DNA of 64,000 nt from Methanococcoides sp. (GTDB taxonomy: Archaea; Halobacteriota; Methanosarcinia; Methanosarcinales; Methanosarcinaceae), in assembly GCA_021108275.1 (NCBI GenBank), contig JAIORD010000041.1, positions 62,001-126,000 of the forward strand, written 5' to 3'. The translations under genes and the position numbers were made by a program. Under the pieces are notes generated by a model. That model was given only the letters and a program-made list of their open reading frames with translations. It ran no database searches and was not told where the DNA came from. Shown piece by piece: positions 57,892 through 64,000 of the stretch; positions within the stretch are counted from its first letter, which is position 1; the number at the start of each line of letters is the position of its first letter.

Positions 57892-58542
57892 TTAATTCAG
57901 GTTGACCCTCTGATTAGTTGCGATATAAACGACACCTTCACAGATATTGCATGCATGGTCAGCAATGCGTTCCAGATATCTGAGAACAAAGATAAGATCG
58001 ACAGCATTCGGGATCAGGGCCGCATCCTCTATCATCAGGTTCACCAGTTTTTGCCAGGTGGAATAGAACAATCTGTCAACCTGACTATCTTCTTCAGCAG
58101 TAGCCTTTGCAAGTTCAGCATCATTTTCAGCATAGGCTTTCATTGAATTTTCCATCATCATTTGTGTGATGGATGCAATCGTGTTTATCTCTGCTAATGG
58201 TATGACGTGTTCACCTTCGATCTTACTGACAAGTTCTGCTATGTTCACTGCAAAATCGCTCATTCTTTCAAGGTCGATGGCGATCTTGTATGAAGCGGTT
58301 ATCAAACGAAGGTCCTTTGCCATTGGTTGCTGTAAGGCCAGCAAGTGCACGGTAGCTTTCTCGACATCATATTCAAGATCATCAACAATGGAATCCATCT
58401 CAATGACATTCTTTGCAAGTTCAAGGTCAAGATGTTCTAATGCCTGTACAGAATTCACCAGCATTTTCTGGGATAATTCTCCCATTTCCAGAATTTCCGA
58501 CCTGAGATCCTCAAGTCGCTGACTAAATATTTCTCTGACCAT
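57892..58542 (-). CDS. phoU: Phosphate transport regulator PhoU
   Basis: A 216-residue all-helical protein with two PhoU repeats ('LRSEILEMGELSQKMLVNSV' and 'INTIASITQMMMENSMKAYA'). Each has the metal-binding E/DxxxD-type segment ('EMDSIVDDLEYDVE' and 'EEDSQVDRLFYSTW'). PhoU restrains the Pst transporter when phosphate is sufficient. It is the last gene of the operon, 4 nt after pstB. No PhoR/PhoB pair is near. Confidence 0.93.
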   Translation of the reverse strand: MVREIFSQRLEDLRSEILEMGELSQKMLVNSVQALEHLDLELAKNVIEMDSIVDDLEYDVEKATVHLLALQQPMAKDLRLITASYKIAIDLERMSDFAVNIAELVSKIEGEHVIPLAEINTIASITQMMMENSMKAYAENDAELAKATAEEDSQVDRLFYSTWQKLVNLMIEDAALIPNAVDLIFVLRYLERIADHACNICEGVVYIATNQRVNLN

Positions 58543-58546
58543 AATA

Positions 58547-59314
58547 TCAACCGAATCTTCCTGTTATGTAATCCTCGGTGCTCTTCACCTGCGGATCTTC
58601 AAATATGTGTTTTGTCCTTCCAAACTCGATAATTTCTCCATGCAGGAAGAACGCTGTATGGTCGGAAATACGTGCTGCTTGTTGCATATTGTGTGTCACA
58701 ATGACAATGGTGTAATCCTTTTTAAGTTCAAGAATAAGATCCTCGATCTTGGATGTGGATATAGGGTCAAGAGCGCTGCATGGTTCGTCGAACAGTAGTA
58801 TTTCAGGCTTGACTGCAAGGGTTCTTGCAATGCACAACCTTTGCTGTTGTCCGCCACTAAGCGAAAACGCCGGATCTCCAAGCCTGTCCTGTACCTCCCC
58901 CATAAGGGCAGCATCCTCGAGTGCCTTGTGTACCCTTTTTTTGGTCTCGGATTTTGAACAGCCATGTATCTTCGGACCATAGGCGATATTATCATAGATG
59001 GACATGGGGAAAGGGTTTGGCTTCTGGAAGACCATTCCCACCTTTTTCCTCAGGTCAACGACATCCACATCCTTGTCGTAGATGTTCTCATCATCAACAA
59101 GTACTTCTCCTCCTATCCTGCATGATTTTACTAGATCGTTCATACGGTTCAGGCATCTGAGGAAAGTGGATTTTCCACAGCCTGAAGGACCTATCAAAGC
59201 AGTAACGCTTTTTTCCGGTATGTCAAGTGAAATATCTTTGAGTGCGTGTTTTTCACCATACCAGAGATTGAGGTCTTTAATATTGATATTCGTATTAATT
59301 TCATTTTTAGACAT
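58547..59314 (-). CDS. pstB: Phosphate ABC transporter ATP-binding protein
   Basis: A 255-residue ABC ATPase of the Pst system. The Walker A motif is '[19 protein letters not shown]' (the Cys-containing PstB form), the Q-loop is in '[20 protein letters not shown]', the signature is '[16 protein letters not shown]', the Walker B motif is '[14 protein letters not shown]' and the switch His is in '[11 protein letters not shown]'. The C-terminal '[11 protein letters not shown]' is typical. It sits between pstA and phoU on one transcript. Confidence 0.96.
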
Positions 59315-59336
59315 AAGATCATCCTCGAATTCTCTT

Positions 59337-60197
59337 TTACCTGTTCAATTTGTTCCGGTAATGTCTTCTTATAACTACTGCAATGCTGTTCATCATAACA
59401 ACTATCAAGAGCAGTATCAATGCTGTTCCATACTGTATCGGACGTGTTTGTGAGATACTTGTACCTGAGGTCGCCAGCACGAAAAGGTGGTATGGCAATG
59501 CCATGAACTGGGAGAATACCGAATCAGGTATCCTTGGTAAGAAGTATGCCGCTCCTGTGAGCAGTATAGGTGCTGTTTCACCTGCAACCCTGCCGACACT
59601 CAGGATTATGCCTGTCATCATTCCAGGGATAGCTGCAGGCAGTATGACCTTTCTTGTGGTCTGCCATTTAGTGACGCCAAGGGCAAGGGAAGCTTCCCTG
59701 TATTCCTGTGGCACTGTCATCAATGCTTCTTTGCTTGCACGGATTATCACGGGTACTATTAGCAAAGCTAATGTCAGGGAGGCTGACAGGATCGATGCAC
59801 CAAATCCAAAGTACTTGACGAATAATGCCAGTCCGAAAAGACCGAACACTACGGATGGTGTACCTGCAAGATTATTGATTGCCATCTCAATTGCCCAGGA
59901 AGCACGTCCCGGAGTTGAATATTCATTAAGGTAAATTGCTGAGAGTATGCCAAGAGGAATGGCAAAGGCCATTGAAAGTCCTATAAGCATCAGACTTCCC
60001 ATTATAGCCGGATAAATGCCTCCCTGAGTCATTCTTTTCATCGGCATCTGGGTTATGAAATCAAGGCTGAGTGCACTGTATCCGTTGACAGTAATGTAGA
60101 TCACAATGATCGATACGAAAGCGAGTACAAGTGCCATGGAGAGCCTCAGCGTAGCAAATGCCAGTTTCTCGGATGCCTTTGGTCTTAAGAACATCAT
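59337..60197 (-). CDS. pstA: Phosphate ABC transporter permease PstA
   Basis: A 286-residue permease with six membrane helices. The family loops '[15 protein letters not shown]', '[18 protein letters not shown]' and the EAA-type cytoplasmic loop '[20 protein letters not shown]' are present, as is '[16 protein letters not shown]'-like sequence near the C-terminus ('[14 protein letters not shown]'). Its start overlaps the pstC stop by 4 nt, so the two are translationally coupled. Confidence 0.95.
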
Positions 60198-61087
60198 ACT
60201 CCCTCCTGGAGTCTGTATTTCTTCTTTACGCTGTCAGCGATAAGATTGATGATGAATGTTATTAGGAAAAGTACTGCGCCTACTGCGAACAGGGCATGGA
60301 AATGTTCACTTCCCTGTGGAACTTCTCCCATCTCAAGGGCAATGGTTGCGGTCATGGTCCTTACCGGATCAAAAAGACCTTCGGGGATTCCGGGTATGAT
60401 CGCAGTATTTCCTGTGACCATCATGACGGTCATGGTCTCACCGATAGCTCTTCCGATACCAAGCATAACCGCTGCGGATATTCCTGATAGTGCTGCCGGT
60501 AATACTACCCTGTAGATGGTCTGCCATTTAGTACTTCCAAGGGCAAGGGAACCTTCCTTGAGTGCAGTGGGAACTGAATTAATGGCATCCTCTGACACTG
60601 ATATAATTGTAGGCAATGCCATCATCCCAAGCATGATGGAACCTGCAAGTGCGGTCTGTCCCGTGGGAAGATCTAACAGGTCCTGTAATAATGGGACCAC
60701 TACGATAAGTCCGAAAAAACCATAAACAACAGAAGGTATGCCTGCGAGGATCTCAACAAATGGTTTGATCAATTGTGCTACTTTGGGGTCTGCAAGTTCT
60801 GATATATAGATAGCAGAAGCAATTCCAAGAGGCACTGAAAGGATAATGGCGCCGGCTGTTACGATCAATGATCCTGTCAACAGAGGCAACAATCCGAATT
60901 TTGCCGGTGACGATGATGGATACCAGGAAGTTTCGGTTAAGAACGAAATGATGGAATAATCACCGAACAAAAGATATCCTTCTCTAAAAAGGAAAAAACA
61001 AAGAAGGAATAGGGCTACAACTGTAACTCCACTTACCATTAAGAGCGTGGATTCAATTGCTTTTTCCTTCTTTTTTCTATGCATCAT
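60194..61087 (-). CDS. pstC: Phosphate ABC transporter permease PstC
   Basis: A 297-residue permease with six helices. Key stretches are 'LFREGYLLFGDYSIISFL', 'GIPSVVYGFFGLIVVVPLL', the EAA loop 'EGSLALGSTKWQTIYRVVLP' and 'IGRAIGETMTVMMVTGN'. It pairs with PstA to form the membrane channel. It lies 35 nt after pstS and overlaps pstA. Confidence 0.95.
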   Translation of the reverse strand: MMHRKKKEKAIESTLLMVSGVTVVALFLLCFFLFREGYLLFGDYSIISFLTETSWYPSSSPAKFGLLPLLTGSLIVTAGAIILSVPLGIASAIYISELADPKVAQLIKPFVEILAGIPSVVYGFFGLIVVVPLLQDLLDLPTGQTALAGSIMLGMMALPTIISVSEDAINSVPTALKEGSLALGSTKWQTIYRVVLPAALSGISAAVMLGIGRAIGETMTVMMVTGNTAIIPGIPEGLFDPVRTMTATIALEMGEVPQGSEHFHALFAVGAVLFLITFIINLIADSVKKKYRLQEGV

Positions 61088-61122
61088 AGTTCATCCCTGA
61101 TCCTTAGAGGGTATTAAAAAAG

Positions 61123-61980
61123 TTAAGCAGGGAAGTACCCTACTTCAAAGATGGTTTCTTCTCCTATCTCGCTGGAGATGAACTCAATGAACTCAAGTGC
61201 AAGGCCTTTTGGTTCACCGTTGGTGTAGAAGTAAAGTGGTCTTGCAAGTGGGTATGTACCTGCGAGAATGTTCTCAGAGGTTGGTTCTTCAGCACCGCTG
61301 CCATTGTCCACTGAAAGTGCTTTTGTAGTATCATCAAGGTAAGCAACACCGACATAACCGATAGCGTTCTTGTTCTGTGATACGGTCTGGATGATTGCTC
61401 CGGTTGATGGGTTGATAAGTGCATCAGGCCTGTATTCGGTGCCTGCCAGTACTTCATCTTTGAAGTATTCGTAAGTACCGGAACTACTGTCGCGTGAAAG
61501 GACTACTATTTCACGGTCTTCGCCACCGACCTCATTCCAGTTAGAGATGTCTCCCACATAGATCGCTTTGATCTGCTCGAATGTCATTTCAGATACTGGG
61601 TTTTCCGGGTTCACTACAACAGAGATACCATCCCATGCAATTGTCTGCTCCAGAGGGTCGATGCCATTTGCCTGTGCATTCTCTATCTCTGATCCTTTCA
61701 TTTCTCTTGATGCCATTGCGATGTCTATCTCGCCATCAATGAGTGCTGCGATTCCTACACCGGACCCTCCTCCGATGATGGCTACACTCGTATCAGGGTA
61801 TTCCATCATGAAGACTTCAGCTTCAGCCTGTGCAAGTGGAAGAACTGTATCTGATCCCTTGATCATAATTGACTGCATTTCTTCTTCACTACCGTCATTA
61901 CCAACACAACCTGCTCCGAAAAGAGCAAGCGAAGTGACCAGCAAGAGCGTGATCATATATGAGATTGATTTTTTGGACAT
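61123..61980 (-). CDS. pstS: Phosphate-binding lipoprotein PstS
   Basis: A 285-residue extracytoplasmic phosphate receptor. It has a signal peptide with a lipobox-like 'LALFGAGCVGN', then phosphate-contact stretches 'IMIKGSDTVLPLAQAEAE', 'IIGGGSGVGIAALIDGEIDI' and 'VVLSRDSSSGTYEYFKDEV'. The open frame extends to 62088, but ATG 61980 follows AGAAGG and gives a proper signal peptide. It is the first gene of the operon. 62043-62110 holds several TATA-like runs that could be the phosphate-regulated promoter; no operator could be defined by eye. Confidence 0.95.
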   Translation of the reverse strand: MSKKSISYMITLLLVTSLALFGAGCVGNDGSEEEMQSIMIKGSDTVLPLAQAEAEVFMMEYPDTSVAIIGGGSGVGIAALIDGEIDIAMASREMKGSEIENAQANGIDPLEQTIAWDGISVVVNPENPVSEMTFEQIKAIYVGDISNWNEVGGEDREIVVLSRDSSSGTYEYFKDEVLAGTEYRPDALINPSTGAIIQTVSQNKNAIGYVGVAYLDDTTKALSVDNGSGAEEPTSENILAGTYPLARPLYFYTNGEPKGLALEFIEFISSEIGEETIFEVGYFPA

Positions 61981-62175
61981 TTTAAACCTTCTTGAACCTA
62001 TCCTTTTTGCCTGGTGGACCAGTCCTATAAAGGTGCAAATGAGTTGAAATGCATATATAGTCTCTCTGTATATTATATAGAGGAGCATGTATGCCCGTAT
62101 AGAAACAGTAGTAATATATATTCTATATATTTATCGAGAAATTTAATATATATCTAAAATTTAAAAAGAATGATC

Positions 62176-62217: not shown

Positions 62218-62790
62218 TTATTCACCTATTGGCAAAATCGTTTTACCGAACTTTTCATTTATTATTTCAGCCAGTGCCAGATATATTGCACTGAGACCAC
62301 AAAAGATCCCTTCATAGCCAGCGAATTGCTTTAGTGCTGCATTCCCTGTGAGATCGGATATGGCTAGCAATAAGAATAACAATGTTAATGATCCGAAGAC
62401 GACTTGCAAGGCTCTATTGGCTTTGAATGTCCCTATGAACATCCCGAAGGTGAACAATCCCCACATGAACAGATATGCTGACATTTCGATTGCGCTTGGA
62501 GCTTCCCCCAAACCTAATTTTGGTGCGATCAGTATGAACACCAAAGTGAGCCAGAATGCTCCATATGATGTGAATGCTGTTGTTCCAAAAGTATTACCAT
62601 TTTTCCATTCCATGACCCCTGCTATAATTTGAGCAATGCCTCCATAAAATAGGCCCATAGCTAAGATAGTTACTCCCAGTCCAAAGAATCCTGCATTATG
62701 CAAATTAAGTAACACCGTGGTCATTCCAAACCCCATTAATCCCAATGGTGCCGGATTTGCTGTTGTGATCTTGATCACACTTTCATCCAT
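62218..62790 (-). CDS. AceTr family (GPR1/FUN34/YaaH) transporter, copy 2
   Basis: A transporter of about 190 residues with six helices and the canonical signature '[11 protein letters not shown]' near the N-terminus. '[20 protein letters not shown]' and '[18 protein letters not shown]' match the family that moves acetate or succinate. The first Met of the open frame is a TTG at 62811, but ATG 62790 (MDESVIK) lies 9 nt after AGGGGG and gives the usual length. It is a close paralogue of 7526-8143, which has lost the NP of the signature. The cloverleaf-like DNA at 62846-62957 lies directly upstream and may disturb or supply its promoter. Confidence 0.85.
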
Positions 62791-62845
62791 CTCATACTTC
62801 CCCCTTATCAATTACCATAAAGTTTATCATTCCTAAGCAAGAATA

Positions 62846-62957
62846 CCACCGGTTTTAACCTCACATTAAATCGAAGATTTAATGGGAGTTTCATTTCATC
62901 GAAACATCCAGATTAATCTGGATGTCTTGCAGTGTAACTGCAAGATGAAACCGGTGG
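62846..62957. repeat. Cloverleaf-like multi-hairpin element upstream of tnpB
   Basis: An outer 10-bp inverted repeat, CCACCGGTTT (62846-62855) and AAACCGGTGG (62948-62957), encloses four further hairpins in only 92 bp. They are ATTAAATC/GATTTAAT (62865-62883, 3-nt loop), GTTTC/GAAAC (62888-62905), the perfect 20-bp palindrome CATCCAGATTAATCTGGATG (62905-62924), and CTTGCAGT/ACTGCAAG (62926-62944, 3-nt loop). It ends 71 bp before the tnpB ATG, so it is probably the left end of the IS200/IS605-type element or a separate folded repeat. Confidence 0.7.
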
Positions 62958-63028
62958 ATGAATTGCGTAAACATCTATTTGTTCTTGTTTCTGATAGATA
63001 TTAGTAGTATCGAAGCGTATATAACAAC

Positions 63029-64000
63029 ATGCGGAAATCCTACAAATTCCGTCTGTACCCGACCAAGGAACAGGAGATTGTTCTGGTCAAAACTCTGGAT
63101 GTGTGCAGATACATCTATAACGAGTTCCTTGCGGACAGAAAGAATGCGTATGATAGATGCAATATAGGATTAGGAACATTTGACCAGATAACTCAGGTTA
63201 AGCATATCGAGTGCAAGATACCAGTTCAATCCCAAATTAAGCAGGATGTCATAAGAAGGCTGGGGAAGGCTTTTGATTCTTTTTTCAGAAGGTGCAGATT
63301 AGGTGAGACTCCTGGATATCCGAGATTCAAGGGAAAGGCCAGATACAACAGTTTCACATATCCCCAGTCGGGTTTCAGTATAGAAGGAAGTAAACTGAAA
63401 CTTTCCAAGATCGGAAATATCAAGATCAAGCAGCACCGGGAGATGGAGGGCAGGATCAAGACATGCTCCATCAAGCGTGAAGTCGATCAATGGTATGCAG
63501 TCTTTTCTGTTGACATGGATGCAAGTCCTGAAATGATCGATCCAGCTACATCCATAGGGGTCGATGTAGGGCTTAATTCATGTGTCACATTGAGCAATGG
63601 GGAACAGCTCGATTCTCCTACATATTACCGCAAGTCTGAGAGATCCCTTGCAGTTCAACAAAAGAGACTGAGCAAGAAGAAGAAAGGTTCGGCGAATCGG
63701 TTTAAACAAAAAACTAAAGTTGCAAAAATTCACAGAAAGATACGTGACCAGAGACTTGATTTTAACCATAAGTTGAGCAGGGTTCTTGTCAACAGGTTTG
63801 ACAGGATAGTGTTCGAGGATCTGAGTATCACGAACATGGTCAAGAATCATCCCCTTGCAAAATCAATAATGGATGTTGCATGGGGTCAACTGATCCAGAT
63901 GACAGAAAGCAAAGCGGAAGAAGCTGGCAAATATGTCGAATTGGTTAATTCTCGCAATACATCACAAAAATGCAGCAGTTGTGGAAACATTGTCAGGAAA
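63029..64000 (+). CDS. tnpB: TnpB (IS200/IS605 family RNA-guided nuclease), 3' partial
   Basis: The frame from ATG 63029 is open for 324 codons to the right edge. The N-terminus 'MRKSYKFRLYPTKEQEIVLV' and 'YIYNEFLADRKNAYDR' are typical TnpB/OrfB. The RuvC-I Asp is in 'SIGVDVGLNSCVTLSNGE', the RuvC-II Glu in 'IVFEDLSITNMV', and the zinc ribbon begins in 'NTSQKCSSCGNIV' near the edge. The RuvC-III Asp and the downstream guide (omega/reRNA) region lie outside the window. No tnpA is seen upstream, so it is a TnpB-only (IS1341-like) arrangement at least on this side. All visible catalytic motifs are intact, so the protein may be active. Confidence 0.93.
   Translation, partial: MRKSYKFRLYPTKEQEIVLVKTLDVCRYIYNEFLADRKNAYDRCNIGLGTFDQITQVKHIECKIPVQSQIKQDVIRRLGKAFDSFFRRCRLGETPGYPRFKGKARYNSFTYPQSGFSIEGSKLKLSKIGNIKIKQHREMEGRIKTCSIKREVDQWYAVFSVDMDASPEMIDPATSIGVDVGLNSCVTLSNGEQLDSPTYYRKSERSLAVQQKRLSKKKKGSANRFKQKTKVAKIHRKIRDQRLDFNHKLSRVLVNRFDRIVFEDLSITNMVKNHPLAKSIMDVAWGQLIQMTESKAEEAGKYVELVNSRNTSQKCSSCGNIVRK

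Follow-up and report, generated by a model that had tools for sequence, protein, structure and literature searches.

The 112 bp that lie upstream of tnpB at positions 62846-62957 of the window (the whole stretch of 64,000 nt of Methanococcoides DNA that was analysed) form, judged from sequence comparison, the left end of a mobile IS200/IS605 element of Methanococcoides that has tnpB only. The 3' arm of its plain left-end hairpin (P0, P1 and H0) is split by a module of 47-51 nt that consists of two tandem hairpins (H1-H2), and this module is an independent, multi-copy and precisely inserted mobile repeat of Methanosarcinia. In some Methanococcoides copies the second hairpin of the module has in turn taken up a double palindrome of 41-42 nt. 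As an explanation of the whole structure it is very likely that an IS605-type left end took up an independent mobile repeat in its hairpin, and that the composite still moves.

The segment folds far better than chance both ways, as the preliminary description had proposed to check. The minimum free energy of 62846-62957 is -35.5 kcal/mol as single-stranded DNA (z -9.6 against 200 shuffles) and -57.3 kcal/mol as RNA (z -10.0, also against 200 shuffles), and none of the 200 shuffles matched the quality of the fold. The arms of the 10-bp outer inverted repeat that had been described are present (CCACCGGTTT at 62846-62855 and AAACCGGTGG at 62948-62957), and so are the further hairpins at 62861-62887, at 62926-62944 and, a small one, at about 62889-62904; the perfect palindrome is there too, although its length is 22 bp and not 20 (ACATCCAGATTAATCTGGATGT, 62904-62925). 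The start codon of tnpB, said to follow directly, is found 71 nt past the structure. An extra outer stem, P0, extends the structure to 62837-62966. The conserved closing stem is CCACC/GGTGG only and not the whole 10-bp arm; across the family the other five bases of the arm belong to the mini-hairpin H0, and their pairing with AAACC is largely peculiar to the window copy, because the conserved ACAGGTGG reads ACCGGTGG there.

Covariation was analysed in a set of 25 two-branch copies from Methanococcoides and related genera (A1), which were found by BLAST and make a cleaner set than the module set A3 below. With the model P0-P1-H0-H1-H2, 90.1% of the cells of A1 are paired, and 50 cells have changed on both sides, compared to 16.8 in shuffled alignments, where 0 of 500 had as many; when the helices are slid by 1-3 columns the pairing is only 30-53%. 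Covarying stems across copies, suggested earlier as a check, were thus found for P0, P1, H0 and H2 in this BLAST-selected set. In the nested 42-nt unit the sequence varies too little for covariation to be assessed. The parts of the left end are listed in the table.

Table. Parts of the composite left end and the adjoining gene (window positions)
Feature	Position	Strand	Basis
TTTAT target pentanucleotide left of the element, predicted TnpB TAM	62823..62827	+	Before 40/41 related left ends; kept in empty sites
Element start, variable 5' tip of left end	62828..62836	+	Orthologous empty sites of related copies and own-locus comparison
P0 5' strand GCAA, partner TTGC 62963-62966	62837..62840	+	GCAA/TTGC covaries with GTAA/TTAC
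P1 5' strand CCACC, canonical left-end hairpin	62846..62850	+	Identical hairpin foot in plain left ends and right ends; helix in covariation model
H0 mini-hairpin GGTTTTAACC, tip of canonical left-end hairpin	62851..62860	+	Covaries; resembles right-end tip of Methanolobus and Methanohalophilus copies
Inserted mobile module (TC...AC[A>C]), enlarged here by nested 41-nt unit	62861..62952	+	Flanks rejoin to perfect palindrome CCACCGGTTTTAACCGGTGG; module at many other site kinds
Module hairpin H1, conserved mismatch A62863.G62885	62861..62887	+	Covariation alignments
Module hairpin H2 (TTTCAT/ATGAAA), split by nested unit	62889..62950	+	Strong covariation in copies without nested unit
Nested unit, two palindromes ACATCCAGATT/AATCTGGATGT and CTTGCAGT/ACTGCAAG	62904..62944	+	13 Methanococcoides copies, always same position
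P1 3' strand GGTGG	62953..62957	+	Covariation model
P0 3' strand TTGC	62963..62966	+	Covariation model
tnpB, intact, 379 aa, extends beyond window	63029..64000	+	Pfam OrfB_IS605, HTH_OrfB_IS605, Cas12f1-like_TNB

The window copy has no tnpA, its TnpB is identified by Pfam, and a subterminal hairpin is present at each end of the element, on the left with the P1 foot and on the right as CCACCCATTTTAATGGGTGG; as is usual for the family, the ends are not terminal inverted repeats. The right end of the window element itself (GGAAGCCACCCATTTTAATGGGTGGTAGTTCAC) is found outside the window, at about G000:C6:126151-126183, where G000 is the element's own genome. We searched for empty sites by comparing joined flanks with sister species, and recovered them for four copies in Methanococcoides (L003, L083, L084 and L085) and one in Methanolobus (L098). 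In these the element starts directly after TTTAT and ends with GTAGTTCAC, with exact boundaries and no target duplication, which places the structure inside the element, just after TTTAT, and bears out the earlier suggestion of a transposition end; the empty loci are without the structure. TTTAT stands immediately 5' of 40 of the 41 related left ends, to be compared with a background density of 0.002 per position in these loci, and in some of the empty sites the pentanucleotide differs by at least one base. At the own locus the relatives lack the element, and the right boundary matches a TTTTAT|CCAAAC site in G022, but this is not a clean empty-site pair, as about 150 nt of intergenic DNA have also been lost in the own genome. 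That loss lies at the insertion, between two TTAT-type sites (window 62700-62830, L147-L151), in the intergenic region between a transporter-like and a dihydroorotase-like gene, an interval in which G017 has a DDE insertion sequence. An apparent phosphate-transport operon (PhoU, PstB, PstA, PstC and PstS-like) adjoins the element on the minus strand (57892-62088). For the other suggestion, that the structure is a target of the TnpB system, no support was found.

Comparison with the left ends of other tnpB copies, also proposed in the preliminary description, revealed both branched and plain ends, and the structure is thus not restricted to the window copy. Further tnpB copies in the own genome are 81-85% identical, and the sister copies there have the plain left-end hairpin CCACCCATTTCAATGAGTGG; the left ends of three of them, L004, L005 and L006, are of this kind (e.g. 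GCAAGAAGACCACCCATTTCAATGAGTGGATGAATTGC), and L073 and L076 are further close copies with a plain hairpin alone. The window copy has the same foot as its plain sister copies and an enlarged tip, and the right ends are plain and share the hairpin foot with the left ends. Among full relatives with both tnpA and tnpB, L102 and L103 have branched ends and L073 a plain one. The own genome also contains another, more diverged family of tnpB genes (L010 and L011, on contigs C16 and C10) with a different multi-hairpin structure upstream, in which CTTTCA...TGAAAG encloses several hairpins.

In the TnpB tree, plain, two-branch and four-branch left ends are interleaved, and going by the well-supported branches at least five changes are needed to explain the four-branch type. 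This mosaic of left-end types implies that branched ends remain mobile, and as far as can be read from the sequences the element evidently still jumps with the extra structure in its end. The species M. alaskense has six four-branch left ends at six sites, the left end of L085, with its empty site, is four-branched, and L082 (four-branch) and L073 (plain, with tnpA) are sisters from the same species with the same left-end flank. The module and the nested unit have the same layout in every case, which makes transposition of the composite, along with swapping of left ends between elements, more economical than repeated double insertion.

The nature of the branches became apparent from the covariance model of the left end, which also matched DNA outside IS605 ends. 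What these sites share is the core of 47-51 nt, TCnCATTAAATCnnAGATTTAATGGGAGTTnCAnTTCTnnnAAnTGnAACA. The earlier idea of a folded, REP-like repeat carried by the element turned out to hold, though not in the form expected: a mobile repeat of its own, which occurs elsewhere too, has inserted into the end hairpin and makes up the branches. In the module set A3, where covariation is inflated since some members were chosen by a hairpin finder or by the structure model, 97% of the cells are paired and 11 of 20 pairs have changed on both sides. The search of the own genome and its relatives, likewise recommended at the outset, recovered the module at many further sites: eight genomes have 8 to 66 model matches each, and across the class 73 of 238 genomes and 15 of the 39 sampled genera contain it. 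Outside Methanosarcinaceae there were 17 matches in G119 of the same order, and 10 and 2 in G235 and G236 of the same class. The ends of the module, TC... and ...ACA, are not inverted copies of each other, and the two hairpins are separated by an invariant GAGT, with no GTAG or CGTC tag. No match was found in the viral contigs and phages searched, the plasmids searched gave one partial match (Methanohalobium), and no element encoding a mobiliser of the module was found. A literature search with the module sequences returned nothing relevant, and we found no published description of the module.

The sites where the module sits are of several kinds. When it is removed from IS605 left-end hairpins a perfect palindrome results (CCACCGTTTTCAAACGGTGG, CCCTATGTCTTTAGCATAGGGG and, in the window copy, CCACCGGTTTTAACCGGTGG), and this was seen in Methanolobus and Methanohalophilus as well as in the window copy. 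It occurs in short PATE-like elements of G005, which mostly end with GTAGTTCAC, and there its orientation relative to that end is the opposite; it occurs in intergenic hairpins, and in hairpin repeats of Methanosarcina, one locus of which (L225) also holds an empty copy. These host repeats, TCCCGAGTTTCGCTTCGGGA ... GCACGAGGTCCTTTTCGCTGCGCTCAAGAGGACT, are short and abundant in Methanosarcina (L224, L225, L294-L306). Finally, the module lies in sense orientation within three unrelated transposase genes, and when it is cut out exactly, frames of 313-316 aa, 379 aa or a local frame are recovered. There is no target duplication; the flanks rejoin exactly and the transposase frames are restored. In G017 the module and one base in 942 are all that separates a module-bearing copy (L246) from a module-free one (L327), in a comparison that was anchored at the ATG and left out L261 and L347 (a neighbouring or truncated copy). 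The one-base difference is a C-to-A at the 3' junction of the module. This insertion sequence encodes a DDE transposase (DUF772 and DDE_Tnp_1) and has many module-free and several module-bearing copies in one genome; its loci are L246, L307, L308 and L327 in G017 and L239 and L245 in G022. Tested over 14 host types, a bias of the module towards hairpins in general did not reach significance (p = 0.15), and general hairpin targeting is not claimed. The idea that the insertion replaces a recognised bulge was dropped, the right-end hairpins being perfect. Within left ends neither the orientation nor the position of the module ever varies, a pattern that could also stem from a single insertion with later swapping of left ends instead of repeated insertion.

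The nested two-palindrome unit of 41-42 nt is seen in the H2 loop of 13 copies, in 5 of 11 Methanococcoides genomes and in none of the 101 other genomes of the family, and always at that position. The orthologous tnpB-less remnants L002 (G000:C7) and L099 (G023:C67), with a left-end start and the end GGTGGTAGCAC resembling a right end, have the four-branch form in one species and the two-branch form in the other.

It could be argued that the branches are instead inherent to the IS605 left end and under selection there, with a regulatory or TnpA-binding role, and that the look-alikes elsewhere are derived from them. Among the IS605 ends found by BLAST the module does keep to one arm and one orientation, it is conserved between genera that differ in their left-end feet, and full tnpA+tnpB elements carry it; but close relatives are mobile with plain left ends as well, other palindromes and transposase genes also harbour the module, PATE-like elements have it on the opposite strand, and its removal leaves a perfect palindrome in three lineages of left ends (Methanolobus, Methanohalophilus and the window copy), so we regard this as improbable. 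A riboregulator in the 5' UTR of tnpB, or a small RNA controlling the gene, would suit the very good fold as RNA and the position just 5' of the start codon, and is nevertheless very unlikely, given that PATE-like elements, the interior of genes and IS605 ends before a leftward tnpA all show the same fold. The 9 G.T cells among 515 pair cells of the module, against 67 that have changed on both sides, also suit DNA better than RNA, although weakly. No Rfam family scored above threshold for the structure; the candidate FuFi-1 was rejected at 35.2 bits against a gathering score of 59.6, being single copy and absent from sister copies.

The transposase genes invite yet another thought, that the module is intron-like or bypassed by the ribosome, and so removed seamlessly from the transposase mRNA, its presence in left ends being incidental. 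The sense direction in three unrelated genes with exact restoration of the frame would fit, as would the multicopy state of module-bearing transposase copies and the low divergence of two of them in one genome (dN 0.0014, dS 0.025). By eye, however, there is no bulge-helix-bulge motif and there are no matched take-off and landing codons, most copies of the module are outside genes, the module-bearing pair L312/L313 has many amino-acid differences, and the copies may be mobilised in trans, with gene conversion homogenising them, 19 near-identical module-free copies being present in the same genome; there is hardly any room left for this reading. Another version has a slim chance, in which the 51-nt module is a minimal mobile element that is silent in genes through RNA removal or ribosome skipping, and rides without cost in transposase genes and transposon ends; if true, it would rank among the smallest mobile intron-like elements. 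Chance palindromes or sequence decay, for which nothing more than the AT-rich intergenic context speaks, are practically excluded by the z of about -10, the covariation of the stems and the more than 100 module-model matches in the searched loci.

For the preferred reading, an IS605-type left end with an acquired mobile repeat, a mechanism can be sketched. The Y1 transposase TnpA would act in trans and come from IS605 relatives, for instance L073, L102 or L103; no TnpA of this IS605 type was found in the own genome, where the Y1 proteins are one divergent protein of 267 aa and a fragment. TnpA may bind the foot of the single-stranded hairpin (P0/P1/H0) and tolerate the branches, which would extrude as a large structured bulge, and the composite end would still transpose and spread the module as a passenger. 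An HUH-type or similar activity might move the module itself, inserting it precisely into DNA that is single-stranded or palindromic, and the nested unit could then have spread both through movement of the element and through recombination of left ends.

IS608 and ISDra2 are the models for the IS200/IS605 family, including its tnpB-only (IS1341-like) elements (PMC5934647). The element described here resembles the family in its TnpB gene, in the subterminal hairpins at both ends and in inserting 3' of a fixed pentanucleotide without target duplication. In IS608, ISDra2 and IS605 the main left-end hairpin is followed on its 3' side by a second, small one (PMC5934647), whereas here extra hairpins from a foreign repeat lie inside the main hairpin, and the target is TTTAT. 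The module has its nearest precedent in the SMR-A repeats of Haloquadratum walsbyi, which are about 110 bp long with prominent terminal inverted repeats, insert in near-terminal palindromes of IS605 and PATE elements without target duplication, and have been proposed to inactivate IS605 elements (PMC3119063). Both are short, non-coding, present in up to tens of copies, and without target duplication or a known mobiliser, and the module too is found inside IS605 left-end and PATE-like palindromes, but also at other kinds of sites, among them transposase genes. It differs further in its 47-51 nt, its two tandem hairpins and its non-inverted ends, and in that its hosts still spread. REP dimers, which in bacteria are associated with RAYT and have been found inserted within palindromes (PMC3733652), are likewise short tandem palindromes in many copies, some within longer palindromes; the module, however, has no GTAG/CGTC tag. 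PATEs are short IS605-derived elements that retain only the end palindromes (PMC3119063), and L002/L099, L104 and the short G005 elements are PATE-like, but PATEs keep the IS605 termini and the module has no TTTAT or GTAGTTCAC ends.

The module is thus a widespread mobile repeat of methanogenic archaea, of 47-51 nt and about half the size of the Haloquadratum SMR-A. A transposon end that still moves with a foreign branched insert is directly relevant to the question of what TnpA requires of the IS200/IS605 hairpin. With plain and branched sister elements at hand, along with transposase copies distinguished by the module plus a single base, both this question and that of what mobilises the module are directly testable.
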